DNA from: an uncultured Spirochaetia bacterium
GTDB taxonomy: Bacteria > Spirochaetota > Spirochaetia > JABEVK01
Direction: 5' to 3'
DNA length: 56,499 nucleotides
Assembly: GCA_937960645.1 (NCBI GenBank)
Contig: CALGPJ010000010.1
Coordinates: forward strand, 1 to 56,499
Below, in pieces: positions 37,119 through 50,871 of this stretch (position 1 is the stretch's first letter; every line of letters begins with the position of its first letter). The translations under genes were made by a program, and so were the position numbers. A model generated the notes under the pieces. That model made no database searches, was not told where the DNA came from, and saw nothing but the letters and a program-made list of their open reading frames with translations.

Positions 37119-39821
37119 ATGGAACTGCTCGTCTTTTTTGGTTTTGGTAGCCTGGCCGTCGTCTTTGTGCTGGTTCTTCAGCTGGACGTCAAGGTCCGCC
37201 AGCTGGAAAAAAGAATCCAGCTTTTGGAAGGGGGACAACATCCGGCGCCGATCCCAGGCCTGGAACCGCAGACCGAGTCGACGCCATCCCAGGCCGCTGA
37301 AATTGTCTCGGAACCAGTCGAAATTCCAACTGCGGCCCCGCCCCCCGTCGAGGCCGCCCCGTCTTTACCCAGACCTGCGGTGGCCTTCCGTGCTCCCGAT
37401 GCCGCCTTTTGGGACCGGGCGATCGGCTTTCTCGGGATTGGTGTTCTGATTCTGGGCATCGGTTTCGGCATCGTCTACGCCGGGTTGGTTTTGGACGCAC
37501 TGGGAAGATTTTTCCTTTTAATTGCCGTATCCCTTGCCCTATTTGCGGCGGGTTGGCTGACCTCGCGCAAGGACTTCCTTAAAGACCTCGGACTCTGGCT
37601 GCGTAGCGCCGGCGGGGCCCTCATCCTTCTGGCTACCCTGGGAGCCGGCCACCTCGAGGGACTGAAATGGGTGGACTCCAGCATCGCGGCCTTTGCCCTC
37701 CTTGCAGTCGGCCTTACCGTGAACCTGGCCCTGGGGTGGGTTAGCAGGCTCACACCGATCACCACCCTACATCAGATCCTTGGCATCGTGGCCCTGGCCC
37801 TTGCAGAAAAGAACGAGGTGACACTGATCACCGCCGCCGTAGTCTCCCTGGCCGCTCTCGTGCTGGCGGGTTTTCGACGTTCGCCCGGAGGGATGGTTGC
37901 CGGTGGGCTGGCGTTCACCGCCTTTCTGATCTTCTGGGCGCAGGGACAGGAGGGGGTACCCACCCTCTTTTCGGTGGAGTCGGCGGCCTTCGCGGTGGTT
38001 TACGGGAGTACCCTGACCCTCCTCGCTCATCGCAATGAAAGTTTTACGGATGGCGGCCGGGCGGCCTCGGTCATTCTGATTCTGGGCGCCCTCGTGACCG
38101 TTGCGGGCGGTTACGTGGTGTTTCGCGACCTGCGCCTGTTCACCCCGCTATTTGCCGCCATCGCCCTTCTGGCAGGAAGCTCTTTTGGACTGAGGCGCCG
38201 CAAGGTCCCGCCCGCCTTTCTGGAGACCCTGGGTTCTCTTGCATTGTTTTCGGTCCTGGCCGCCCTGGCATTTTTACCCTTCTGGGATCAGGCGATCCCG
38301 ATCCTGCCGCTCGTTTTGGTAGCCGGGTTCTGGTGCGCCCTGGTGTGGGCTTTCTCTTCCCGTTTCCAGTTGACGATCACCCGCCTCGTCGCGCTGGTCC
38401 TCCTGCCTTTGTTGAACCTTCTCCTCCTACCGTTTTTCTACGAGGGACTCAGCCGTCAGCTGGCACATCCGGTCCTTCTGATGTTGCCCGCGCTGGCCCT
38501 CATCCGTGGTGAGGAAAAAGAGGCCGAGTCCCTTTACGTTCAACTGGTGAGCGGAGCGGCGTTTCTGGTTGCCACACTCGCCAGCATCCCCGAATACTTC
38601 TTCCCCTGGTCCCTGGTGATTCCCGCCCTCTGGCTCGGCCTGGCCGTGGTCGCAGACGTCCGCCGCAAAGTCATTCTCTCGGCCTTCCTAATCGCCGCCT
38701 TTGTCTTCTCCTCCTTGATCTATCTCCCGGCCTACGCCGATTCTGCGGTTTACCCCGTCGATAGCTTTCCTCACCTCGCCATCTTTATCACCGGCTTCTG
38801 GTGGATGGGCCGCGGGGTACTCGGCAGGACCCGCTGGTTCTCCTCCCTGGCGGGGGCGGTGGTCAGTGGCCTGGCTTTTTATGTCATCCTCGAAAAGTGG
38901 TCTTTCGTTCTGAAGCCCGCCGGGGTCCTGGCCGTAATCTCCGTCCTTTTCGTGATCCTCGAAGCCCTCGCGCCCCTCATCCGCCAACGGCCGATTTGGG
39001 GGCTGGACGAGGCGCAATTGCGGGTGTGGCGCCTTCTTTCAGAAAGCGCCGTGTTATTTTTTGCCCTGACGGTGCATCACCTCGTCACGTTCGAGGCTCA
39101 CTCCCCGATGCTCTGGCTATGGGGGGGCCTCCTGGCAGCATCCGGCGCCATCTGGCGCAGCCTTCTATCCCAGGGCAGCGAACGCTTGAGCTTCGCCGCC
39201 TTCGCAATGGCAGGTTGGTTCCTCGACCGAATCCTCCCCGAGTCCATTCCTTATGCAGTGTGGCTGGCATCGAGCAGCATCCTGGCCCTGGCAGCCTGGC
39301 GCATCGAGAGCCTCAAAAAACCCCTCGGCGGGGCTGCCGTGGGTCTGTTTTATCTTGGACTTTTGGCCTGGCTCCTCCTGGCTTCCGGTCCGGTCCCCTT
39401 TTGGCCCTACCCCCTGGTGAGCCTGGCCGGGGGACTGGGTTTTTGCGCTGCCGCTCTGTATGGGAAGACGCCCCTGCCCCCCAAATACGCGGCCCAGAGC
39501 AGCGCCCTTCCCCTGGTCGGAGTCGCGTTCCTGGTTTTGGGGCTTCGGTGGGATTCCGGGGCGCCTTCGCTGCTGTTGCTCTTTCTGGGCATAGGGCTTT
39601 ATCTTCTGGCCCTCGTACGGGAGGGGGCCATCCCACGGATCACGGCCTTCGTGGCCCTGGCTCTGACTGCCCTGAGGCTCTTGTTAGTGGACTTTTCCGA
39701 GGGCGACTTCGGTGTTCGCGCCCTGGTTTTTCTGGTGAGTGGGGCCGTGCTGACGGGCCTGAGTCTCTTTGCCCGTATCCTGGACCATCGCCGCAAACAA
39801 TCGATCGATCACCAGGGCTAG
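37119..39821 (+). CDS. DUF2339 polytopic membrane protein
   Basis: A protein of 900 residues. One N-terminal membrane segment and a short coiled coil (VKVRQLEKRIQLLEG) are followed by a Pro-rich linker (about 45-85). More than twenty hydrophobic helices then run to the end, ending in FARILDHRRKQSIDHQG. This layout is that of the DUF2339 family, whose role is unknown; surface or envelope processes have been suggested. CGGAGGG precedes the ATG and TATACT lies shortly upstream. The last 138 bases overlap the convergent YehW-like permease gene. Confidence 0.85.
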   Translation: MELLVFFGFGSLAVVFVLVLQLDVKVRQLEKRIQLLEGGQHPAPIPGLEPQTESTPSQAAEIVSEPVEIPTAAPPPVEAAPSLPRPAVAFRAPDAAFWDRAIGFLGIGVLILGIGFGIVYAGLVLDALGRFFLLIAVSLALFAAGWLTSRKDFLKDLGLWLRSAGGALILLATLGAGHLEGLKWVDSSIAAFALLAVGLTVNLALGWVSRLTPITTLHQILGIVALALAEKNEVTLITAAVVSLAALVLAGFRRSPGGMVAGGLAFTAFLIFWAQGQEGVPTLFSVESAAFAVVYGSTLTLLAHRNESFTDGGRAASVILILGALVTVAGGYVVFRDLRLFTPLFAAIALLAGSSFGLRRRKVPPAFLETLGSLALFSVLAALAFLPFWDQAIPILPLVLVAGFWCALVWAFSSRFQLTITRLVALVLLPLLNLLLLPFFYEGLSRQLAHPVLLMLPALALIRGEEKEAESLYVQLVSGAAFLVATLASIPEYFFPWSLVIPALWLGLAVVADVRRKVILSAFLIAAFVFSSLIYLPAYADSAVYPVDSFPHLAIFITGFWWMGRGVLGRTRWFSSLAGAVVSGLAFYVILEKWSFVLKPAGVLAVISVLFVILEALAPLIRQRPIWGLDEAQLRVWRLLSESAVLFFALTVHHLVTFEAHSPMLWLWGGLLAASGAIWRSLLSQGSERLSFAAFAMAGWFLDRILPESIPYAVWLASSSILALAAWRIESLKKPLGGAAVGLFYLGLLAWLLLASGPVPFWPYPLVSLAGGLGFCAAALYGKTPLPPKYAAQSSALPLVGVAFLVLGLRWDSGAPSLLLLFLGIGLYLLALVREGAIPRITAFVALALTALRLLLVDFSEGDFGVRALVFLVSGAVLTGLSLFARILDHRRKQSIDHQG

Positions 39822-40484
39822 GGCGGCTGCCGTCAGCGCCCCCTGGAGGACATACGCATACCGAAACTGTGTGATCCCTGCGATGATAGGCCGTCCCAGT
39901 CCACCGGCTCCCATGGTGGCACCGATGGTAGCGGTTCCGATGTTGATGAGTAGCGATGTGCGGATGCCCGCCAGAATTCCGGGAGCGGCCAGGGGAAGTT
40001 CGATCCCGACCAGGATTTGCAGGCCTGTGAATCCGCAGCCCCGGGCCGCGTTTCGGACCCCCTCCGGCACGGTCTGGAGGGCCCCGTAGGCGCCGTTGAA
40101 CACCGGCAGGACCCCGAAAAACAGCAGGGCAAGAAAGACCGGCCCGTTCCCAAATCCCGCCACCGGTATCAGAAGGGCCAAAACGGCCACCGGCGGAACC
40201 GTCTGCATCAGGCTGGTGGAGAAACTAAAAAGTTTCTGTACCGAGGCGGAGCGGCTGAGGTGGGACAGCAGGGCCGCGGCCAGTCCCGCTCCACAGGCGG
40301 CGAGGCTGCTGGCCAGCACCATCCCCAGGTGTTCTGCCAACAGGACGAGTGGCTCCTCGAAGGGATAGATCGATCCTTCTTCGGAAAACACCAGTCGCAA
40401 TAGAAACTCGAGGCTGGCGGGCCAGATCAGAACGCTCAGGATGGACACGGCCAAAATCGGGCCGCCGAGGATTTTAAGATTCAA
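39684..40484 (-). CDS. Betaine/osmoprotectant ABC permease, YehW-like
   Basis: One of two membrane subunits (266 residues, about six helices) of the importer encoded by the next three genes. The family segment LMQTVPPVAVLALLIPVAG and the coupling loop GVRNAARGCGFTGLQILVGIELPLAAPGILAGIRT are clear. The normal end is near IDRLFAAMVQDTG; beyond it come 30 extra hydrophilic residues read from DNA antisense to DUF2339. The start is TTG at 40484, with GGAGGACAGCC before it and 11 bases of overlap with the ATPase gene. Confidence 0.87.
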   Translation of the reverse strand: MNLKILGGPILAVSILSVLIWPASLEFLLRLVFSEEGSIYPFEEPLVLLAEHLGMVLASSLAACGAGLAAALLSHLSRSASVQKLFSFSTSLMQTVPPVAVLALLIPVAGFGNGPVFLALLFFGVLPVFNGAYGALQTVPEGVRNAARGCGFTGLQILVGIELPLAAPGILAGIRTSLLINIGTATIGATMGAGGLGRPIIAGITQFRYAYVLQGALTAAALALVIDRLFAAMVQDTGKETQARQHGPTHQKNQGANTEVALGKVH

Positions 40485-41565
40485 GGCTGTCCTCCCGCAG
40501 CAGGGACTCGATCGTGGGCAAATTCAGCTCGCCCACCAGCCGGCCGAGGTCATCCAGAACCGGCAGGTGCTTCAGTCCCAGGGCCAGCATCATGGAGAGC
40601 GCATCCTTCAGATTGGTCTCGGGGGTAGCACACTCCTCCCAGGACAGCGGGGTCACTGCGTCGTGCCACCGCTCACGCTCGGTATCTTCGAAGTTGATCC
40701 AGCCGACAAATCGGTCCTGCTCGTCCACCACCCAGCCCCAGACCCGGCCGTTATCTTCGAGGGAGTCGCTGCCCAGGCGCAGGGGATGAACCGCCGCCAT
40801 GCAGCACGTCACCGGTAGGCGGATCAGACGCTTGAGGCTGCGGTCGGTACCCACAAAGCGCCGCACGAAGGCGTTGTTTGGAGACCGCAGGATGGCCTCG
40901 GGGGAGTCGAACTGCACGGCACGGCCCTGATTCATCACCAGCATGCGGTCCGCCAGGAGGATGGCCTCGTCCAGATCGTGCGTCACCATGAGGACGGTTT
41001 TCCTGACCTTGGCCTGGATGGCGCGAAGGAAGCGCTGGTGGCGGGCCCTTTGCAAAGGATCCAGGGCCCCGAAGGGTTCGTCCATCAACAGCAGGGGCGG
41101 ATCTGCTGCCAGGGCCCGGGCTATCCCCACCCGCTGCGCCTCCCCGCCCGAGAGCTGGTGGGGAAACTTGCGCCGGTACGCCTCGGGATCGAGGCCCACC
41201 AGCGCCAGCATCTCGCGGACCCGATCGCGGATCCGCTCCCTGGGCCATTTCAGCAGCCGGGGCACGGCGGCGATATTGTCCTCCACCCGCCAGTGGGGGA
41301 AGAGCCCCACATCCTGTATGACGTAGCCCATGCTCCGCCGAAGCGCCACCGGATCGAAGGTGCTCAGGTCCTGCCCCCGAAGCAGGATGCGGCCCCGGGT
41401 TGGTTCCAGCAGACGGTTGACCAGCTTGAGCGTGGTGGTTTTCCCACATCCCGAGGGGCCAATGAGTACCACGAATTCCCCACGTTCGACGGAAAAGCTA
41501 AGATCAGTGATGGCCGGGATGCTGCCGTAGGTGTAATGGACTTGCTCAAAGACCAGCTCGGACAT
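40474..41565 (-). CDS. Betaine/osmoprotectant ABC ATPase, YehX/OpuCA-like
   Basis: The ATPase of the transporter, 363 residues. Walker A is GPSGCGKT (36-43), the signature is LSGGEAQR, Walker B is LLLMDEP and the H-loop is VTHDLDEA. A C-terminal extension of about 110 residues (from GWVVDEQDRFVGWINFED to VLDDLGRLVGELNLPTIESL) looks like a pair of CBS domains. In OpuA-type transporters such domains gate transport by ionic strength. The ATG at 41565 has GGAGGGG upstream; the open frame continues to a GTG at 41580. It overlaps the YehY-like gene by 20 bases. Confidence 0.9.
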   Translation of the reverse strand: MSELVFEQVHYTYGSIPAITDLSFSVERGEFVVLIGPSGCGKTTTLKLVNRLLEPTRGRILLRGQDLSTFDPVALRRSMGYVIQDVGLFPHWRVEDNIAAVPRLLKWPRERIRDRVREMLALVGLDPEAYRRKFPHQLSGGEAQRVGIARALAADPPLLLMDEPFGALDPLQRARHQRFLRAIQAKVRKTVLMVTHDLDEAILLADRMLVMNQGRAVQFDSPEAILRSPNNAFVRRFVGTDRSLKRLIRLPVTCCMAAVHPLRLGSDSLEDNGRVWGWVVDEQDRFVGWINFEDTERERWHDAVTPLSWEECATPETNLKDALSMMLALGLKHLPVLDDLGRLVGELNLPTIESLLREDSLES

Positions 41566-42694
41566 GGCCCCTCCGCTCACTCTGCGCCCCCTCCAGAAGC
41601 CTGAGCAGTACGTCCGCCCCCAGCGTGAGCATCAACAGGGGCAGGACCCCGAGGAGTACCATGTCGGCGGAGGTCTGGCCGATGCCCTGAAAGATGAAGT
41701 ACCCCAGGCCGCCCGCTCCAATCAACGGGGCGAGGGCGGCATTTCCCAGGTTCTGCACCACCGCCGTCCGTAGCCCCGCCAACACGAGGGGCAGGGAGAG
41801 GGGGACTTCCACCTTCCAGAAGAGCTGCCACTCCGAAAGCCCCAACCCGCGGGCGGCCTCCCGGACCTGGGGCGGCACCGCCCGCAGCCCCTCCCGGATA
41901 CCGCTCATCAGGGGGAGCAGGGCATAGATGGCCAAAGCCGCCACCGCCGGGGCGCTTCCGATTCCCGAGAGTCCCCAGGCTCGCAGAGTCGGAAACAAAC
42001 GGGCCAGTCCACTGAGCGGCACCATCAGCAGGCCCAGCAGGGCCAGGGTGGGCACGGTCTGGATCAGGCCGCTGAGGCTGTATACCCAGCCGCCCCAGAT
42101 CGTTCGGGCAGCGGCGACCCCCAGCGGCAGAGCCAAAAGCAGCGCCACGGCGAGGGACGTCCCGGAGAGCAGCAGGTGCTGAACCAGCTCGGCCAGCAGA
42201 CGGTTCTGTTGGGACCGCAGCTCGACGAAGATCGAAAGCGGGCTTCCGCTCTGAAAGGCCAGCACCCCCAGGACAAACCCCCACAGGGCCAGGTGGAGGG
42301 GCCAGCGGCGCCGGCGCTCGTCGAGGAGCAGGGGCAGCAGGAGCCAGATGTGCAAGGCCCAGAACCCCAGCTCGGGACTGAGCCGCATTCCCATCGGCAC
42401 CAGCTGTTGACCCACCAACCCGGGAAGCCCCCAGAGTCCCAAAAGTCCCCAAACCGCCACCACGGCAGGGGCGGCAAAACCGAAGGCTAAAACCAGGACA
42501 GCGCCCCAGGTCAGGAACCCGACCGCAGCCAGCCCCCAGCTCCCCACGAGGTCGAGGAAGAACACTGCCGTGCCACGAACCACGCGGTTGGGGTCCAGGC
42601 GGTACAAGGGAAACAGGATGAGAATCAGACCCAGGCCAATGGCGAGGATGGTCGCTCGTTTCCAACTTCCCGGCATCCCGCCCCAGGGTCCCAC
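41546..42694 (-). CDS. Betaine/osmoprotectant ABC permease, YehY-like (long form)
   Basis: A membrane protein of 382 residues, about the length of E. coli YehY. The first 170 residues carry about five extra membrane helices, and the second half is the transport domain proper (VQHLLLSGTSLAVALLLALPLGV, LIQTVPTLALLGLLMVPLSG, and the coupling loop VREAARGLGLSEWQLFWKVEVPLSLPLVLAGLRT). The start is GTG at 42694; GAGGAG lies just upstream and overlaps the stop of the binding-protein gene. Substrate by family: glycine betaine or a related compatible solute, of uncertain affinity. Confidence 0.88.
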   Translation of the reverse strand: MGPWGGMPGSWKRATILAIGLGLILILFPLYRLDPNRVVRGTAVFFLDLVGSWGLAAVGFLTWGAVLVLAFGFAAPAVVAVWGLLGLWGLPGLVGQQLVPMGMRLSPELGFWALHIWLLLPLLLDERRRRWPLHLALWGFVLGVLAFQSGSPLSIFVELRSQQNRLLAELVQHLLLSGTSLAVALLLALPLGVAAARTIWGGWVYSLSGLIQTVPTLALLGLLMVPLSGLARLFPTLRAWGLSGIGSAPAVAALAIYALLPLMSGIREGLRAVPPQVREAARGLGLSEWQLFWKVEVPLSLPLVLAGLRTAVVQNLGNAALAPLIGAGGLGYFIFQGIGQTSADMVLLGVLPLLMLTLGADVLLRLLEGAQSERRGHVRAGL

Positions 42695-42704
42695 CCGCGG
42701 CTCC

Positions 42705-43619
42705 TCAGGGGATCAGGCGCCGGGCCCGAAGCCATTCTCGGGCCACCTCCTCGGGGACCTTTCCCTCCACGATGATGCTGGCGTTGAGTTTCTGCAGACT
42801 CTCCAGGTCCAGGCTGCGAAAGATCGGTTCCAACAGGCCGGGCAGATCGGGATACCGGTCGAGTACCTCCCGGCGCACGATGGGGGCCGGCTCGTAAACC
42901 GGTTGAACCTTTTGATCATCTTCCAGGACCACGAGGTCGAAGGCCGCAAGGGTCCCGTCGGTGCCGTAGGCCATGGCGGCGTTCACCCCATCGATGGCCT
43001 CGGCGGCCGCCTTCTGCGTCGTGGCCGTGTTGCCTCCAGAGAGGATGAGCAGCTGATCGGGTCTTAGCCGAAAGCCGTAGACCTTCGCGAACGCCGGCAG
43101 GGCCGCTGAGGAGTTGACGAACTCCTCGGAAGCCGCCAGCCGCAGCACCCCGCCGCGGTTCAGATAGGACGCCAGATCCGAGAGGGTGCGCAGTCCTTCC
43201 CGGCCCGCCAGATCCCGGCGGACGGCGATGGCCCAGGTGTTGTTGGCCGGGGCCGGAGTCAGCCACACGATGCCGTTGTTTTGTAAATCCAGCTCCCTGA
43301 CCCGCTGGTAGCCCTGCTGCGGGTCCTGCCAGACCGGGCTATCCGCCTCGTTGAAGAAGAAGGCCCCGTTTCCGGTGTATTCCGGGTACAGATCGACCTC
43401 GCCGGCGAGGATGGCCTGGCGGAGGATGGGGGTGCCGCCCAGTTGGATCCGGTCGGTTATTGTATACCCGTGTTTTTCCAACACCAGTTTCATCATGTTC
43501 GCGAGGAGGGCGCCCTCGGTGTCCATCTTGGACGCAAGCACGAGGACCCTGGACGACTGCTGACATCCCAGGACGAGAAAAAGCGAAAATAACCCCAAAA
43601 ATCGCGTTGTGTGATGCAT
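42705..43619 (-). CDS. osmF: OsmF/YehZ-like betaine-binding lipoprotein
   Basis: The periplasmic receptor, 304 residues from the ATG at 43619, which has AAGGGG before it. Other in-frame codons further upstream fall inside the preceding DUF427 gene. The signal ends in FLVLGC (lipobox), so it is anchored. The mature protein has the OpuAC/OsmF layout: EGALLANMMKLVLEKHGY, GEVDLYPEYTGNGAFFF (ligand-binding Tyr region) and the terminal LESLQKLNASIIVEGKVPEEVAREWL. Gene order receptor-YehY-YehX-YehW is the same as in E. coli. Confidence 0.9.
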   Translation of the reverse strand: MHHTTRFLGLFSLFLVLGCQQSSRVLVLASKMDTEGALLANMMKLVLEKHGYTITDRIQLGGTPILRQAILAGEVDLYPEYTGNGAFFFNEADSPVWQDPQQGYQRVRELDLQNNGIVWLTPAPANNTWAIAVRRDLAGREGLRTLSDLASYLNRGGVLRLAASEEFVNSSAALPAFAKVYGFRLRPDQLLILSGGNTATTQKAAAEAIDGVNAAMAYGTDGTLAAFDLVVLEDDQKVQPVYEPAPIVRREVLDRYPDLPGLLEPIFRSLDLESLQKLNASIIVEGKVPEEVAREWLRARRLIP

Positions 43620-43641
43620 AAAAAACCCCTTGTATTTCGTG

Positions 43642-43923
43642 TCAGGACTGGATTTGGACACCCTTCCAGAAGGCGTAGTATCCCTTGATCTGGCGAGCGG
43701 CATCCTTGGGCTGGGGATAGTACCACACCGCATCGGTGTTCACTTTGCCGTTGATGCTCAGGGATTTGTAACTTGCCAGTCCCTTCCACGGGCAGGTGGT
43801 GTGGGTGTCACTGTCGAGGAAGTATTGGGTGTTGACGGATTCCGGGGGGAAGTAATGATTTCCCTCGATCACGATGGTCCGATCGCTCTCGGCAATCGTG
43901 ACCCCATTCCAAATCGCTTTCAT
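43642..43923 (-). CDS. DUF427 family protein
   Basis: A small cytoplasmic protein of 93 residues that covers the complete DUF427 domain: MKAIWNGVTIAESDRTIVIEGNHYFP, then HTTCPWKGLASYKSL and a final DAARQIKGYYAFWKGVQI. The family is widespread and of unknown function. The ATG at 43923 has a strong AAGGAGG; earlier codons have none. It is the first gene before osmF (22-base gap), so it is probably co-transcribed with the transporter. A weak promoter (TTGGCG, 18 bases, TATCTT) may lie just upstream. Confidence 0.88.
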   Translation of the reverse strand: MKAIWNGVTIAESDRTIVIEGNHYFPPESVNTQYFLDSDTHTTCPWKGLASYKSLSINGKVNTDAVWYYPQPKDAARQIKGYYAFWKGVQIQS

Positions 43924-44119: not shown

Positions 44120-45355
44120 TTACAGATATTGGGACACCATCGCGGGAAGGGTGGTTTCCAGCTTGGTGAGGTCCTCGAGGCTGCCCACCAGCTCGCCCTT
44201 TTTCAGGAAGAGGATGGACGGGGACTTTTTGTACATGAGGCGGCAGGCGATGCGGTCGGACTTGTAGATGTCGATGCGGCGAAGCTTGACCCGCGGGTCC
44301 ATGCCCGCGTGTAGCTGCTCGATGCGGGACAGGTACTCGCGTTCCAGGGCCTCGACGGCGTTGTACACGTAGGCCATCACCAAGCCCTCGGCGCCAAAGA
44401 TCTCGTCGCGGACGTAGTTGACCTCCTCCACATACTTTTCGGCCATGAAGCCGCCGATGGCCCCGTCACCGACCGCGGTGGCCACCTGGCGCAGGACCTT
44501 GTCGCGGCAGTCGCCGACGGCAAAGATGCCGGGGCGGCTGGTTTCCATTAGCTCGTTGGTCTTGATGTAGCCGCGGCTGTTCATCTCAACCAGGCCTTCG
44601 GCGAGCTTGGTGTTGGGAACGTAGCCGATGAAGAGGAAGCAGCTGTCCACCTTGAAGGGCATCAGCTCCCCGGTCTTGATGTTCTTCAGCACGACCGTCT
44701 CGAGCATGTCCTCGCCCTCGAAGGAGTCCACCACCGTGTTCCAAACAAATTTGAGCTTGGGGTTCGCCAGGGCCTTTTCCTGGGCCACCTTGTTGGCGTC
44801 CATCTTGCCCTCGTCGTGGATCACCGAGACGATGACCTCGGTGGCGAACTTGGACAGGAACATGCCCTCCTCGATGGCGGCATCTCCCGATCCGATGACC
44901 ATAACGCGTTTGCCGGTGTTGCAGGCGGCGTCACAGGTGGCACAGAAGGAGATGCCCTTGTCGTTGAGGAACTTCTCTTCGTTTTTAGCTCCGGTGAGGC
45001 GCGGCTTGTTGCCGGTGGCCAGGATGAGGGCCTTGGCCACGTACTCGTTGCGGAAGGTGGACACCACGATCTCCTCGCACTCGATGGAGATGTCGGTGAC
45101 CGCAGTGAGTTTGACCTGCACCCCAAAGCGGCGCATCTGTTTGTCGAAGATCTTCATCATTTCGATGCCGTCGATGCCCTCGGGGAAGCCGGGGTAATTT
45201 TCAATTTCGCTGGTGTAGGTAGCCATGCCTCCCATCAGCGATTTTTCGATCAGGATGGTCTTGAGGCGGGCTCGCCCCGCATAGAGGGCGGCCGTCATCC
45301 CGGCGGGCCCCCCGCCCACCACGACGACGTCGTACTCTTCACGTTTTTTGTCCAT
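44120..45355 (-). CDS. Thioredoxin reductase-like flavoprotein fused to a cysteine-less thioredoxin-like domain
   Basis: A protein of 411 residues, against about 310-320 for TrxB. Residues 1-310 are a complete TrxB: FAD site VVVGGGPAGMTAALYAGRA, redox-active CATC (in ISFCATCDAAC, near residue 140), NAD(P)-binding VIGSGDAAIEEGMFL and the FAD-closing motif GIFAVGDCRD. The last 90 residues have the strand-helix order of thioredoxin, including SPSILFLKKGELVGSLEDLTKLE with the cis-Pro region, but the CGPC site is replaced by residues without Cys. Its ATG shares a base with the YeeE-N stop (TGATG). It is the last gene of the sulfur operon and probably reduces an imported sulfur group or its carrier. 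Confidence 0.85.
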   Translation of the reverse strand: MDKKREEYDVVVVGGGPAGMTAALYAGRARLKTILIEKSLMGGMATYTSEIENYPGFPEGIDGIEMMKIFDKQMRRFGVQVKLTAVTDISIECEEIVVSTFRNEYVAKALILATGNKPRLTGAKNEEKFLNDKGISFCATCDAACNTGKRVMVIGSGDAAIEEGMFLSKFATEVIVSVIHDEGKMDANKVAQEKALANPKLKFVWNTVVDSFEGEDMLETVVLKNIKTGELMPFKVDSCFLFIGYVPNTKLAEGLVEMNSRGYIKTNELMETSRPGIFAVGDCRDKVLRQVATAVGDGAIGGFMAEKYVEEVNYVRDEIFGAEGLVMAYVYNAVEALEREYLSRIEQLHAGMDPRVKLRRIDIYKSDRIACRLMYKKSPSILFLKKGELVGSLEDLTKLETTLPAMVSQYL

Positions 45356-46068
45356 CAGAGGGCCCCTGCCTTCTTCTTCCCCCAGTAGTCAGCGGCCACG
45401 TAGAGGCCGAAAAGGGCACCGAACTGCACGATGACGGCCGGGATCCATCCCCCTAAAACTTCCGGCAGGAAAACCGCCGTCCCCGTCCAGAAGATCGGCG
45501 AGGTTTTCATGAGGTTGAGGAGGGCCGTTCCCAACATCGATCCAAACACAAAGAACACGAAGGCCAGCCAGTTTTGCGCATAGCCCTCGCCCATGCGCAT
45601 CAGGGTTCCCGACGCACAACCACCGGCAATCACCGCACCGATGCCGAACAGGAAGCCTCCGATGGCCGTGTGCAGCCCGATGGGGAGAACATTACCCAGA
45701 GCCTTTTCCACCTCCAATTGCTTCAGATCCATGCCGAATTTCTGCATGTTGAGAGCCATGAACACCAGGCTGGCCAGGGTCAGCGCAATGACCACGGCCT
45801 TGGTGAGGTCGGTCGTTCCCGTCAACAGGGGATCCCGGAGACTGGAAGTGAAACAGAAACGGCTGCGCTGCAGGGTGTACCCGAATCCCGTGCCGACAAG
45901 AATGATGAAGGCTCCTGCGGGATTGGTCTGCTGAGCCAAATAGGCAAAAAACAGCACCACGATGCTAACGACGACGCCCAGACTGATCTGGATGATTTTG
46001 CTGCGCCGGCGCTCCTCCGGGGTTTGGGCTTTCCGGCGAGTGCGTGTGACAGGTATGGCATTGCTCAT
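45355..46068 (-). CDS. YeeE/YedE-type sulfur transporter, half corresponding to the N-terminal part
   Basis: An inner-membrane protein of 237 residues with about six helices and a basic N-terminus. It aligns in pattern with the first half of YeeE (TsuA), the thiosulfate importer: QRSRFCFTSSLRD, then GFLFGIGAVIAGGCASGTLMRMGEG. The Cys in SRFCF and in GGCASG are at positions like those that relay thiosulfate in the YeeE structure. GAGGT precedes the ATG, 9 bases after the other half. Substrate is inferred from family: thiosulfate or another sulfur anion. Confidence 0.86.
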   Translation of the reverse strand: MSNAIPVTRTRRKAQTPEERRRSKIIQISLGVVVSIVVLFFAYLAQQTNPAGAFIILVGTGFGYTLQRSRFCFTSSLRDPLLTGTTDLTKAVVIALTLASLVFMALNMQKFGMDLKQLEVEKALGNVLPIGLHTAIGGFLFGIGAVIAGGCASGTLMRMGEGYAQNWLAFVFFVFGSMLGTALLNLMKTSPIFWTGTAVFLPEVLGGWIPAVIVQFGALFGLYVAADYWGKKKAGAL

Positions 46069-46077
46069 GATTTTACC

Positions 46078-46608
46078 TCACATGAAGTATCGTTTCAGCA
46101 TCTGGCTGCCGACGGCAGCTCCCAGGAAGAAGAACAACAGAAAGGCCCAGCCGTGCAGGGAAAAGGCCGGTAGAGCCGAAAACAGCGAGCCGATGTTACA
46201 CCCCAGGGCCAGGCGAGCGCCGATGCCCATCAGGACGCCGCCGAGGACCGCGGCCACCACCTGCCGCCAGCTCTTCATCTTCTTGATCTTGAACGAGGCT
46301 GCCAAAAGCACGGCGAGCAGGGCCCCCAGCACGATGCCCAGGTCGGTCATCGACACGATGTCCTTGAAAAAATCGTAGGTGGCGATGCCCTCGGCCCAGA
46401 AATTCAGGCTCTCGGCGCTCACCCCAAACAGTTCGAACAATTTGCCGCCCCACACTGCAAACGGGCCGGTCACTCCCCAGGCCTTGCCAGTCACGACCAC
46501 CAGGCTGACGGCCAGGATCACGAGCATCACCCCCCCGGCCGTATAGGACCATTCCTTTTTGAAATACGCTTCCCAAAAGCTCAGCTTTTTCTCGGTTTCG
46601 TTTTGCAT
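46078..46608 (-). CDS. YeeE/YedE-type sulfur transporter, half corresponding to the C-terminal part
   Basis: An inner-membrane protein of 176 residues with about five helices. It matches the second half of YeeE: VVVTGKAWGVTGPFAVWGGK near the start and GIGARLALGCNIGSLFSALP near the end, with the third conserved Cys in LGCNIG, then LHGWAFLLFFFLGAAVGS. It is encoded before the N-terminal half, so the order is the reverse of that in a single-chain YeeE. GAGGAC precedes the ATG; the gap from the TusA gene is 7 bases. Confidence 0.86.
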   Translation of the reverse strand: MQNETEKKLSFWEAYFKKEWSYTAGGVMLVILAVSLVVVTGKAWGVTGPFAVWGGKLFELFGVSAESLNFWAEGIATYDFFKDIVSMTDLGIVLGALLAVLLAASFKIKKMKSWRQVVAAVLGGVLMGIGARLALGCNIGSLFSALPAFSLHGWAFLLFFFLGAAVGSQMLKRYFM

Positions 46609-46615
46609 AGCGTCC

Positions 46616-46843
46616 TCACTTCATTTTCTGGATGATGATGTCCCACTCGCCCTCGCCCACTTCCTCGATTTCCACCCCGTGCCCGACCGATCGAGCCCAA
46701 TCGGGGATGTTTTTCATCGCGCAGCTGTGGTCGATGTTGACAATCAGCACATCCCCAACGGCCATTTCCTCGAGGGCCTTTTGGGTTTTTACCAGGGGGA
46801 CGGGACAGGCCTCCCCCAAACAATCCAGGGTTCGTTCCGCCAT
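46616..46843 (-). CDS. TusA/YeeD-family sulfur-carrier protein
   Basis: A protein of 75 residues. The sulfur-carrying Cys lies in LDCLGEACPVPLVK (CPxP motif, near residue 13). A second Cys in VNIDHSCAMKNIPDWARSVGH is shared with YeeD (FDCTQATEAIP in E. coli as I recall), so the protein is closer to YeeD (TsuB) than to true TusA. YeeD works with YeeE to take up thiosulfate. It is the first gene of a four-gene operon; a strong GAAGGAGG precedes the ATG and a candidate sigma-54 promoter lies at 46878-46893. Confidence 0.9.
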   Translation of the reverse strand: MAERTLDCLGEACPVPLVKTQKALEEMAVGDVLIVNIDHSCAMKNIPDWARSVGHGVEIEEVGEGEWDIIIQKMK

Positions 46844-46877: not shown

Positions 46878-46893
46878 AGCACGTACCATGCCA
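46878..46893 (-). promoter_or_regulatory. Candidate sigma-54 promoter of the TusA-YeeE-YeeE-reductase operon
   Basis: On the minus strand the sequence TGGCATGGTACGTGCT fits the -24/-12 pattern TGGCAyrNNNNNTTGCW: GG and GC are separated by exactly 10 bases and only one of the conserved T in the -12 box is changed. The predicted start is near 46868, leaving a 25-base leader before the ATG that contains the ribosome site. An AT-rich, bend-prone stretch lies upstream at 46921-46947. Confidence 0.7.
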
Positions 46894-47019: not shown

Positions 47020-48357
47020 TCAGCTGTGGGGCGCCATCTCGGCCAGGCGGCGCAGCAGGGCCTGGCGGGAGATGCCCAGGAGTTCGGCGGCCCGGGTGTG
47101 GTTGCCGCCCGTCCTTTCCAGCGCCAGGCGGATGAGGCGTACCTCCTGGGTCCGAAGGTTTAGCTCATCCAGATCGGTGGAGGGGGAGTTTTGGCCCTCC
47201 GGGTTGGCCATGACCTCCTCCGGCCCCAGGATCAGGGCACGCTCGACGATGTTGCGCAGTTCCCGCACGTTGCCGGAATATCGGCGCTGGCGGAGGTATT
47301 TGAGAAATCCCTCGGGCAGGTTCCGCTCCGGCTTTCCCATCCGCAGGGAAAGGGTTACCCATAAATGGCGGGCCAGAACGGGGATGTCCTCGGGAATCTG
47401 GTTCAGGCTGGGCATGACGATTTCCAGTACCGAAAGGCGGTAGTACAGGTCCTCGCGGAAACGCCCTTCGCGGACCATATCGGTCAGGGGGCGGTTGGTG
47501 GCACAGATCACCCGAAAATCGACGGGCACCTCGCGGTCGCTGCCCAGGGAGCGCACCGTTCGGGTTTCCAGCACCCGCAGAAACTTTGCCTGAAGCTCCA
47601 GGGGCAGCTCCCCGATTTCGTCGAGAAAGAGGGTGCCGCCATCGGCAGAGCGAATGTGTCCCTTACGGTCGGCCGTGGCGCCGGTGAAGGCCCCGCGAAC
47701 GTGACCGAAGAGTTCGGACTCCACCGTGGACTGGGGCAGGGCCGCACAGTTGACGGCCACGAAGGGTCCGCCGCTGCGGGGGCCCTGGTAGTGGATGGCT
47801 CGGGCCGCCAGCTCCTTTCCCGTGCCGCTTTCCCCCAGGATGATGACGGCGGCCTCGACACCCGCCGCCTTGTCGATCCGCTCCCGGACCCGCCGCAGGG
47901 GTTCGGAGGAACCCAGGAGGAGTTCTCCCCCGCCACCACTCAGAACCTGACTCAGGGCCTGGCGCAGGTTGCGGTTTTCTCGCAGAGAAGCCAGGTAGCG
48001 CTGCAGCCGGATCACGGCCGCTTCCAGTTCCGGCGGCGTGAAGGGCTTGGCCAGATAGTCGAAGGCCCCCTGCCGAAGGGCCTGAATGACCGTGTCCATG
48101 TCCCCATGGCCGCTCATCATGATGGCCTGAAGGGCGGGAAACTCCTGCTTCAAGAAACGCAACAGCTGGAGGCCGTCGTACTCGGGAAGTTTGATGTCGA
48201 TCAGGGCCACATCGATGTCGTGGGCGCGGGTCAGCTGCAAGGCCTGGCTCGGACTCGCGGCGCTCAGCACGCTAAAACCCCGGCCCTGCAGGTATTCCGA
48301 AAGCTCCTCGGCCAGGCGCCCATCGTCCTCGACAATCAAAATGCGAAAATGGTTCAT
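47020..48357 (-). CDS. Sigma-54-dependent response regulator, NtrC/DctD type
   Basis: A protein of 445 residues. The receiver domain (1-120) has the acidic pair EDD (10-12), the phosphorylated Asp54 (ALIDIKLPEYDG) and the late Lys in YLAKPFTPPELE. The AAA+ domain (about 150-380) has Walker A GESGTGKE, the sigma-54 contact loop GAFTGATADR and Walker B GGTLFLDEIGELP. The C-terminal helix-turn-helix (NHTRAAELLGISRQALLRRL) belongs to the Fis type. It overlaps the kinase gene by 4 bases (ATGA). A sigma-54 promoter with paired inverted repeats directly downstream makes the sulfur operon its probable target. Confidence 0.95.
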   Translation of the reverse strand: MNHFRILIVEDDGRLAEELSEYLQGRGFSVLSAASPSQALQLTRAHDIDVALIDIKLPEYDGLQLLRFLKQEFPALQAIMMSGHGDMDTVIQALRQGAFDYLAKPFTPPELEAAVIRLQRYLASLRENRNLRQALSQVLSGGGGELLLGSSEPLRRVRERIDKAAGVEAAVIILGESGTGKELAARAIHYQGPRSGGPFVAVNCAALPQSTVESELFGHVRGAFTGATADRKGHIRSADGGTLFLDEIGELPLELQAKFLRVLETRTVRSLGSDREVPVDFRVICATNRPLTDMVREGRFREDLYYRLSVLEIVMPSLNQIPEDIPVLARHLWVTLSLRMGKPERNLPEGFLKYLRQRRYSGNVRELRNIVERALILGPEEVMANPEGQNSPSTDLDELNLRTQEVRLIRLALERTGGNHTRAAELLGISRQALLRRLAEMAPHS

Positions 48358-50594
48358 GACTCCTCCCGGAGTGGCAGGGTGATGCGAAACATCGTCCTCC
48401 CCGGTTGCGATTCCCAGCTTAGCTGCCCTCCCAGGGACTTGAGGATGCCGTAAGAAATGGACAGCCCCAGTCCCGTCCCGCGCCCGGGGGCCTTCGTGGA
48501 GAAGAAGGGGTCGAGGATGCGGTTTTGAATCTCCTCGGGGATTCCCGGCCCGTTGTCCTGGATTTCCAGTTGGGCAAACTTGCCCTCTTCCCGAAGGCGC
48601 AGGATCAGCCGCGGTTGGTAGGCATCGGCCTCCCCCCGCTCTCCGGCGTCCATTGTAGCGTCCTCCAGGGCATCGCGGGCGTTGGACAAAAGGTTGATCA
48701 GCACCTGTTCGAACTGATACGCATCGCCGCAGGCATGCAGGGGGCGTTCCGGGACCTGCAGGTCCACCGCGATGCCCAGGGTGGTGTACTGCACCTGAAA
48801 AAGCTCCAGTGCGGACCGCAGGGCGTCAGCCAGACAGAAGCTGGTATCGCAGGTGCCGCCGGAATCTCGGGCAAAGAGGCGCACGTGGCCGATGATCCGC
48901 CGGATGCGCTCGATGTCGTGCCGCAGCTGGCGGGTCTTCTTTTCCAGGTAAGCCTCGTCCAGGTTGCCCTGGCGCAGGCGCTCGAAGGTGTTTTCCAACC
49001 CAAAGCTGATGGAATTGAGCGGCTGGTTGATCTCATGGGCGATTCCCGCCGCCAGCTCGCCGATGGCGGCGAGCCGGGACTGGAGCAGGGCCCGCAGCTC
49101 CTGCTCCCGCTGTTTTTCCAGCGCCTGCGCCACCTTTTCTTCCAGGTGGCGGGTCCAGTCCTCGAGTTGCCGCTGACTTTTAACCTTTTCTGTCACGTCC
49201 TGAGAAATGCGGATGATGCTGTCGATGTCGCCCTCGGAATCGACAACGGGGATGGCCGTGTGCTCCCAACAGACCGAATTTTCCGCATCGGGGGTTTCCT
49301 GACAGAGGGCCACCAGGCTTCGGGCCTCGAAGGCGGCCCGGATGCGTTCCTGCTCGCCAGCAAAGAAGCCCGTCTCGGGAAGCTCTCGTCCCAGCTGAGC
49401 AGGAAGCGGCACCTTGAGTTTCAGGGTCTCCCGGGCCAGCCGGTTCATCCAGCGAAGCTCCCCGTGCACGCTGAAAAAAAACACCAGACCGGGAAAGCCC
49501 TCGGCGATGGATATGAGCATCCGGTGCCGGTCCTTGAGGTTTCTAACCAGGGTCTCGATTTCCCGGATGATTCGGGAAAGGTCCGAGGTGTCGGCCTCAT
49601 CCTTTGGGCTTTCCGGAAAGAACACCTCCCCGATGCCACCCCGGATGGCCGCCGCCTGGGCCACGGCCTTTTTTAGGGGATTCAACAGGACCGACAGACC
49701 CCAGAAAGAGCCCAATCCGACGATGGCCACCATCGCCAAACCCAGGTAACTCAACCGCTCCCGACTGGACAGGATGTCCCGGACCAGAAGCCCCCGGTCG
49801 ATTTCCGCCTTGATGTAGCCCCCCACCTCCCCGCTGTAATACCGCAGCGGAAAATACCCAACAGCCTTCGAGGCCTCGCAGGAGGTGAGCCAGAACCTTT
49901 CCCCGCCCCGAATGCGTTCGAGGACCTCTCTCGAGGTGGGACAATTATCCACCGGCGCTGTCCCGGTGATGGGCAGATAACCGGGCGGCTCCTGGGTCAG
50001 TAGTCTCAGGTAGAATTCCCCCTCGTAGCTTTGCTTGAGCCGGTTCAAAAAACCGATGTCGAACTCCATGCTGTATTCCAGGGCACCCAGGTAGCGACCG
50101 CTTTCCGACCAAACCGGTTTGATGACCCTGAGTCCCAACCCATGCACCCCCATTTCCAGGCCGCGCAACCGTTGAGGCTGATCGTGCATTTTTTGCAACA
50201 TGGGACGCAGCTCCGAAATTGGGTCGTCGTAATGGTCGGGAGAATGAATTCGCAGAAAGGTCCTGCCGTCGGGCAGGTGAAAATGGATCTTCGACAGGCG
50301 TTCTTTAATGGACGGGTAAAAGTTCATGAAGTAGCGCAAAAGACCCGGGCGGTCCCGATTCTGGAAAAGCCGGCGCAGCTCTGGATTGGAAAGCTGCGAG
50401 TCCAAGGCGAGTTCGGCGTAGTCAAGGTCCTCCTCGATTGCCCGCTGGATCACCCGAAACACCAGTTCAAAGGCCCGGGCCTCGCTTTGGACGATGACCT
50501 CAGAGGTCTGCTGGTTGATCAAAAAACCGGCGAGCGTCGTGAGAACGGCCAGGAGGAAGGAGACGAACAGCGTGAGTTTGACGACGATGCCCAC
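48354..50594 (-). CDS. Membrane sensor histidine kinase with Cache-type sensor and PAS domain
   Basis: A protein of 746 residues. One membrane helix at 5-26 and a second near 280-305 enclose a periplasmic domain of about 250 residues. It reads like a double-Cache (dCache_3) domain, with FLRIHSPDHYDDPISELRPM and GVHGLGLRVIKPVWSESGRYLGALEYSMEF. Two cysteines there (about 218 and 239, VDNCPTS and LTSCEAS) could respond to thiols or sulfur compounds. A PAS domain follows, then HisKA with the phosphorylated His in GIAHEINQPLNSI (near 518) and an ATPase domain with DNGPGIP and GRGTGLGLS. The start is GTG. It is co-transcribed with the regulator. Confidence 0.92.
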   Translation of the reverse strand: MGIVVKLTLFVSFLLAVLTTLAGFLINQQTSEVIVQSEARAFELVFRVIQRAIEEDLDYAELALDSQLSNPELRRLFQNRDRPGLLRYFMNFYPSIKERLSKIHFHLPDGRTFLRIHSPDHYDDPISELRPMLQKMHDQPQRLRGLEMGVHGLGLRVIKPVWSESGRYLGALEYSMEFDIGFLNRLKQSYEGEFYLRLLTQEPPGYLPITGTAPVDNCPTSREVLERIRGGERFWLTSCEASKAVGYFPLRYYSGEVGGYIKAEIDRGLLVRDILSSRERLSYLGLAMVAIVGLGSFWGLSVLLNPLKKAVAQAAAIRGGIGEVFFPESPKDEADTSDLSRIIREIETLVRNLKDRHRMLISIAEGFPGLVFFFSVHGELRWMNRLARETLKLKVPLPAQLGRELPETGFFAGEQERIRAAFEARSLVALCQETPDAENSVCWEHTAIPVVDSEGDIDSIIRISQDVTEKVKSQRQLEDWTRHLEEKVAQALEKQREQELRALLQSRLAAIGELAAGIAHEINQPLNSISFGLENTFERLRQGNLDEAYLEKKTRQLRHDIERIRRIIGHVRLFARDSGGTCDTSFCLADALRSALELFQVQYTTLGIAVDLQVPERPLHACGDAYQFEQVLINLLSNARDALEDATMDAGERGEADAYQPRLILRLREEGKFAQLEIQDNGPGIPEEIQNRILDPFFSTKAPGRGTGLGLSISYGILKSLGGQLSWESQPGRTMFRITLPLREES

Positions 50595-50622: not shown

Positions 50623-50871
50623 TTAGGAAGCCGACGCGCTATCCTGCTTCGACACAACGACCCTGCTCAAAAAGAACTTTTGCAACCGAGGCATCAGGAA
50701 GATCACCAGGGGAAGGGCAAGAGCATAGGCGATTGCCCAGGCACGTAAAAATCGAAACAAAAACTCCTCGCTGATTCCAAAGTTGATACTCGTTGAAACG
50801 AGACTCATAAAAAATGTCATGATGGCGACCATGGTTGCCATCGACAAAAGTTGCGCGGTTCGCTGATTCAT
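50623..50871 (-). CDS. DUF2798 family small membrane protein
   Basis: A protein of 82 residues with two membrane helices (LLSMATMVAIMTFFMSLVST and AWAIAYALALPLVIFLMPR), which is the DUF2798 layout. The function is unknown. GAGGTG precedes the ATG, and the gap from the permease gene is 13 bases, so it belongs to the same operon. It could be an accessory subunit of the permease, but there is no evidence beyond position. Confidence 0.85.
   Translation of the reverse strand: MNQRTAQLLSMATMVAIMTFFMSLVSTSINFGISEEFLFRFLRAWAIAYALALPLVIFLMPRLQKFFLSRVVVSKQDSASAS

Follow-up and report, generated by a model that had tools for sequence, protein, structure and literature searches.

Why a thioredoxin reductase (TrxB) should carry a C-terminal thioredoxin-like domain that has lost its active-site cysteines, and what such a protein does beside a YeeE-family membrane protein and a TusA-family sulfur carrier, is the question raised by this locus. 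We addressed it in the window, meaning the whole 56,499-nucleotide stretch of an uncultured Spirochaetia genome, and in the homologous loci and genomes of its relatives. Coordinates of the features discussed are collected in Table 1.

Table 1. Positions of the fusion gene, its motifs and the neighbouring genes in the window; counts refer to aligned family members.
Feature	Position	Strand	Details
Fusion of TrxB and pseudo-thioredoxin (TRXF)	44120..45355	(-)	411 aa open reading frame
CATC redox centre	44933..44944	(-)	residues 138-141; C138/C141 in 116/116
H-D-E-G-K-M-D in place of the NADPH motif HRRxxxR	44798..44818	(-)	residues 180-186; alignment to PDB 2q7v
C-terminal thioredoxin-fold domain without active-site cysteines	44123..44410	(-)	residues about 316-411; AlphaFold2, Foldseek and profile
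E-A-L-E at the thioredoxin CGPC position	44342..44353	(-)	residues 335-338; tail alignment
D-I-Y-K, near-invariant DxYK motif of the tail	44261..44272	(-)	residues 362-365; D 115, Y 114, K 114 of 116
P379, cis-proline position of the thioredoxin fold	44219..44221	(-)	114/116
YeeE half-gene A	45355..46068	(-)	237 aa; PF04143 model positions 1-154; conserved neighbour
YeeE half-gene B	46078..46608	(-)	176 aa; PF04143 model positions 161-309; conserved neighbour
TusA/YeeD-like sulfur carrier	46616..46843	(-)	75 aa; PF01206 3e-24; C13 (CPVP), C41 (DHSCAMKN)
Candidate sigma-54 (-24/-12) promoter TGGCATGGTACGTGCT	46878..46893	(-)	50 bp upstream of tusA; 9/11 consensus positions
NtrC-type sigma-54 response regulator	47020..48357	(-)	PF00158 7e-68, PF00072, PF02954
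Sensor kinase	48354..50594	(-)	4-base overlap with the regulator; from reading of the sequence; homologs beside the operon in relatives

A reductase domain with an altered nucleotide site

Residues 1-313 of the fusion correspond to a thioredoxin reductase (TIGR01292, PF07992 at 2e-48), with a TIGR01292 score of 315.3 bits that lies below the cut-off of 343.45 bits. The whole protein was modelled by AlphaFold2 with a pLDDT of 88, and among solved thioredoxin reductases the best Foldseek E-value was obtained with that of D. radiodurans (2q7v), which is 44% identical over the reductase domain. In the model, the tail is preceded by a long helix (H291-320) that is continuous with the reductase domain.

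Both cysteines of the CATC centre are invariant, and C239 is kept in 115 of 116 aligned members. The CATC is followed by D-A-A, also invariant in the fusion family; ordinary TrxBs of the class mostly have GPFF or a similar sequence at this place. In the E. coli complex, the aromatic pair of the ordinary enzyme touches thioredoxin. Since this aromatic loop is replaced by D-A-A, ordinary thioredoxin is probably not a substrate of the fusion. A separate ordinary TrxB and several thioredoxins are encoded elsewhere in the window genome, so the general thioredoxin system does not need the fusion.

The nucleotide-binding site differs from that of a standard TrxB in one of its two motifs. GxGxxA (GSGDAA) is intact in all members, with G155, G157 and A160 invariant. 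The second motif, HRRxxxR, has become HDEGxMD in the window protein and nearly all homologs, and D186 is present in all 116 aligned members. In thioredoxin reductases, the Arg residues of HRRxxxR hold the 2'-phosphate of NADPH. As the motif is lost, NADPH is probably not the electron donor of the fusion and NADH is the likelier one; the loss presumably resembles the situation in NADH-type enzymes such as AhpF. A preliminary description of this DNA had called the reductase part a complete TrxB, which is accurate for CATC, the FAD domain and GxGxxA, but not for the NADPH motif.

A thioredoxin fold retained without its cysteines

The same description had read the order of strands and helices in the tail as that of thioredoxin, and structure prediction bore this out rather than returning an unrelated fold. 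Predicted alone from 70 aligned tails with AlphaFold2, the tail had a pLDDT of 92.8 and a secondary structure of E10-16, H21-35, E41-47, H53-57, E65-70, E73-78 and H84-95, and most of its top Foldseek matches to solved thioredoxins had TM scores of 0.82-0.88. Searches with the single tail sequence gave only marginal matches (HyaE 0.0034, Thioredoxin 0.083, PDB thioredoxins 0.1-0.2), so the fold was settled by the structure together with a profile of 70 homologous tails, which matched PDB thioredoxins across almost the full length (7e-17 to 1e-10). Chance is excluded, because the tail is conserved across phyla.

The profile alignment sets E335..E338 of the window protein against CGPC, in agreement with the earlier reading that the CGPC positions are replaced. 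The absence of the cysteines had been presented as a trait of this one protein, and here the comparison changes the picture: it is the norm of the fusion family. Of the 116 members that we aligned, 74 have D, 32 have E (D or E in 106) and 5 have C where thioredoxin has its nucleophilic cysteine, and at the position of the second cysteine 56 have S, 29 have D and 26 have C; both cysteines are kept in only five. A specific residue pattern of the tail is retained without the CxxC. In addition to the DxYK motif and the cis-proline position (P379, rightly picked out beforehand), this pattern includes Y or W at position 331 in all 116 members (Y331 in the window) and R339 in 105. Any purpose served by the acidic residue that has taken the place of the nucleophile is putative. 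The sole tail cysteine of the window protein, C371, does lie in a helix other than the active-site one, as had been described. It was rejected as a functional cysteine, being conserved in just 12 of 116 members.

The five members with a tail CxxC (L013-L016 and L007; SCPNC, SCVNC or TCELC) are all from Spirochaetia and have the same operon type, and in their lineages the tail may act as an electron relay. Their tails sit at two nested places in the reductase-domain tree, an arrangement compatible with both an ancestral and a regained CxxC. Separately, L099 (7879-9162, minus strand) and L017 encode a divergent TrxB (38% identity) that has its own thioredoxin-like tail without active-site cysteines and no YeeE neighbour, possibly a separate case of a like fusion.

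These patterns bear on whether the tail has a function at all. The protein might be an ordinary TrxB-Trx fusion of the NTRC or M. leprae type, with a decaying thioredoxin tail that has no function; the domain order is that of the known fusions, and five members still keep the CxxC. However, decay would not keep a near-invariant DxYK and a consistent acidic replacement of the nucleophile across phyla, and we give this explanation very little credence. A purely structural or regulatory tail, which would stabilize the dimer or fix a domain conformation without touching TusA or YeeE while the reductase domain alone recognized the partner, deserves more consideration. The helix continuous with the reductase domain fits such a tail, as does the faster fall of identity to the window protein in the tail (18-58%) than over the whole protein (54-76%). 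Nonetheless, the near-invariant positions (Y/W331, D362, Y364, K365 and P379) are few and motif-like, resembling a binding site, and the remaining tail drifts, so that we regard a structural tail as unlikely. We prefer a tail that docks or gates a partner, and the operon suggests which partner this would be.

An operon with YeeE and TusA

The genes from tusA to the fusion share the minus strand and either overlap or are separated by no more than nine bases, and the start codon of the fusion has one base in common with the stop of the upstream YeeE half-gene, a tight coupling. The TusA of the window is nearer to YeeD than to YedF models, and its C13 and C41 are present in every readable TusA among 77 fusion partners. 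E. coli YeeD has the corresponding cysteine pair C13/C39 (PMC11073785). Clostridial operons contain a second YeeD-like TusA upstream, with CPxP and DHSC; the C13/C41 pair therefore marks YeeD-like carriers generally and is not specific to partners of the fusion.

Of 297 genomes sampled from the window's class, 50 contain the fusion, and relatives of the query were encoded on 269 stretches of GTDB genomes. Most of the best 80 named among these 269 relatives come from Spirochaetota or from Bacillota (Clostridia, Paenibacillus), and a few isolated ones bear the label of another phylum; many carriers of the fusion are anaerobes. YeeE adjoins the fusion in 79 of the 80 named loci; in the remaining one (L166), the sequence begins at a contig edge. 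In the class, YeeE/TusA neighbours were found beside the fusion at 36 of 39 sampled loci; of the three loci without YeeE, two are truncated by a contig edge directly upstream of the fusion, and the third is L099, the 38%-identical non-member. Every full family member with upstream sequence available has an adjoining YeeE, an association that the preliminary description had put forward as a check, and none of these members has the tail outside a sulfur-gene context.

Co-occurrence across genomes gives a similar result. The YeeE subtype (E below 1e-60) occurred in 49 class genomes, 46 of which also carry the fusion, and in the reverse direction 46 of 51 class genomes with the fusion carry the YeeE subtype. 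YeeE is usually encoded by two genes, and we found the orders YeeA-TusA-YeeB-fusion, TusA-YeeB-YeeA-fusion and TusA-whole YeeE-fusion. As the gene order varies, the link of the fusion with YeeE and TusA outlasts rearrangement. Judged from these genomic patterns, a functional link between them is very probable.

The closest homologs of the window protein are in genomes labelled Treponema and Gracilinema (83% identity of the reductase domain). Neither the fusion nor the YeeE subtype occurs in the one sampled genome from the same genus or in the five from the same family, so either the operon reached the window genome by transfer or it was lost in the sister genomes. A second YeeE-like region of the window genome (G000:C46:8853-9464, minus strand) lies within a reading frame that stays open for about 699 codons and is probably a YeeE fused to another domain.

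Upstream of tusA are a candidate sigma-54 promoter and genes for an NtrC-type regulator and a sensor kinase. In a scan across the window, a site with 9 of 11 consensus positions was not above chance, and the weight of this candidate comes from the comparison of relatives only. Among relatives in the window's clade, the seven loci with an NtrC-type regulator (L103-L108 and L111) all have a site with 10-11 of 11 positions, located 53-128 bp upstream of tusA; the regulator is directly upstream in six of them and elsewhere in the locus in L106. Four others (L109, L110, L112 and L115) have no NtrC-type regulator in the available locus sequence and a best site of at most 7/11.

Several other genes flank the operon. 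Upstream of the sensor kinase are genes for a DUF2798 membrane protein (50623-50871) and an ArsP_1-type permease (PF03773, 50885-52063). Downstream are genes resembling an osmoprotectant (OpuC-type) ABC transporter (39684-43733; permease, ATPase, permease and binding protein), and a DUF427 protein (PF04248, 43642-43995) is encoded between these and the fusion. All of these are on the minus strand. In other loci, including L069, L073, L077 and L085, tandem-rhodanese pairs of about 310 aa are encoded downstream of the fusion, and these may supply sulfane sulfur to YeeE from outside. Of 39 Spirochaetia loci, 25 have tandem-rhodanese proteins (PF00581) close to the fusion, and one such protein reads as a lipoprotein.

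A proposed role in sulfur uptake and its alternatives

From the architecture, fold, CxxC loss, motif replacement and synteny that we observed, we infer an electron donor, a reaction, a direction of flow and a docking role. YeeE, in its two halves, would bring thiosulfate, or a different sulfane-sulfur compound, to the membrane's inner face. There, C13 of the YeeD-like TusA would accept the sulfur, and the carrier would finish as a persulfide, an S-thiosulfonate or, by way of its second invariant cysteine, a C13-C41 disulfide. The FAD/CATC centre of the fusion would then reduce the carrier, probably with NADH and not NADPH, which would free sulfide and return TusA to YeeE. The tail would relay no electrons. 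Most likely it would dock the carrier or the YeeE-TusA complex through its substrate groove, using Y331, D/E335, DxYK and cis-Pro379, or gate access, and it would also exclude ordinary thioredoxin. The preliminary description had already suggested a docking domain for a sulfur carrier such as the YeeD-like protein; the fold and the link to YeeE and TusA genes strongly support that reading in part, and the docking itself is putative. Taken as a whole, the statement that the fusion is a dedicated electron-supply flavoprotein of YeeE-TusA sulfur uptake, with a tail for docking or gating, is one that we hold with slight preference.

The physiology of the window genome bears on this role. The near-complete genome (99.3%) has no PF01077 sulfite/nitrite reductase, no PF00384 molybdopterin oxidoreductase and no selD. 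The absence of the first two means that it contains no known PhsA-type thiosulfate reductase, Dsr or assimilatory sulfite reductase. Fusibacter species reduce thiosulfate, and no phs/psr, dsr or glpE was found in them (PMC10386464); we found the fusion operon in three Fusibacter genomes (L168, L178 and L182).

Electrons might also flow in reverse, with the flavoprotein oxidizing reduced TusA or a sulfide-derived persulfide to form NADH, as part of persulfide detoxification or of sulfur oxidation. For YeeE-TusA clusters that include DsrEFH type II, a role in sulfur oxidation or disproportionation has been proposed (PMC13293266, PMC13047784), and the tandem-rhodanese neighbours noted above would suit this direction. 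It is nevertheless very improbable, since the window genome has neither a sulfite reductase family member to act as DsrAB nor a molybdopterin oxidoreductase, and some of the organisms with the operon are fermenters for which thiosulfate reduction is known.

A selenium system would differ in its cargo: YeeE would be a YedE-like selenium transporter and the reductase would act on a selenium-loaded carrier. The best NCBIfam match of both YeeE halves is indeed YedE/FdhT, far under the cut-off, and archaeal YedE is split into two genes (PMC5322559). A LysR gene at clostridial operons also resembles the selenium-associated model NF040786; it is divergent (L160:5327-6229 and L181:5370-6269, both minus strand), with a match above the cut-off in L160 and below it in L181. 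But selD is missing from the window genome and from 25 of the 50 fusion-bearing class genomes, and TusA is nearer to YeeD than to YedF models. This co-occurrence led us to reject selenium as a general explanation, and we consider it improbable as the role of the operon.

We return to reduction of a sulfur-loaded TusA by the fusion. A more specific and doubtful version is that YeeE, TusA and the fusion together form a cytoplasmic NADH-linked thiosulfate or sulfane-sulfur reductase, unlike the molybdenum enzyme PhsABC, in which the tail would make a thioredoxin reductase into a carrier reductase. If this were true, it would explain sulfide formation from thiosulfate in fermenters such as Fusibacter. 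YeeD breaks down thiosulfate with release of sulfide, and the electron route for this was stated to be unknown (PMC11073785). Because the fusion is hardly ever separated from YeeE and TusA in the different phyla, both this route and thiosulfate reduction in Fusibacter without known reductases (PMC10386464) become directly testable. The tail is also a clear case of a thioredoxin domain that has turned from catalyst to non-catalytic module, with a signature of an acidic residue in place of the nucleophilic cysteine together with DxYK.

Comparison with known systems

Fusions of TrxB with thioredoxin and YeeE-TusA systems are each known already. Among the open-access papers searched, some of them judged by title and abstract, we found no description of the two combined, with a thioredoxin tail free of cysteines and an altered nucleotide site.

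Among reductases, the low-molecular-weight thioredoxin reductases (TIGR01292; 2q7v) are alike in the FAD/NAD-binding domains and CATC, with 44% identity. The fusion differs from them in the loss of HRRxxxR and the post-CATC aromatic loop, in the added pseudo-thioredoxin and in its sub-cut-off score. AhpF and its homologs (TIGR03140, TIGR03143) share the TrxR-type domain, but the thioredoxin folds of AhpF are N-terminal and that of the fusion is C-terminal; TIGR03143 covers only residues 7-313 of the fusion and not the tail. Plant and cyanobacterial NTRC and the Mycobacterium leprae TrxR-Trx are TrxB-Trx fusions with a working CGPC tail. They have the same order of reductase then thioredoxin fold, whereas the fusion described here has Asp or Glu at the nucleophile position in 106 of 116 members. 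NTRC has been described as a TrxB-Trx fusion (PMC3792407). Ferredoxin-dependent flavin thioredoxin reductases (FFTR) are defined by the loss of both GxGxxA and HRRxxxR (PMC10880999), and we rejected membership in this group, as the fusion retains GxGxxA.

The sulfur-uptake partners also have known counterparts. The YTD cluster and the yeeE-tusA-dsrEFH type II systems (PMC9751629, PMC13293266) combine YeeE/YedE and TusA in one operon, as here, but no such reductase was described there. We rejected membership, since the window operon contains no DsrE-like gene and the genome encodes no sulfite reductase. The thiosulfate uptake system YeeE/TsuA-YeeD/TsuB (PMC11073785) shares the YeeE-family membrane protein and the small two-cysteine TusA-family protein with CPxP. 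Here, by contrast, YeeE is usually split, the operon includes a flavoprotein reductase, and the scores fall under the TsuA and TsuB cut-offs.
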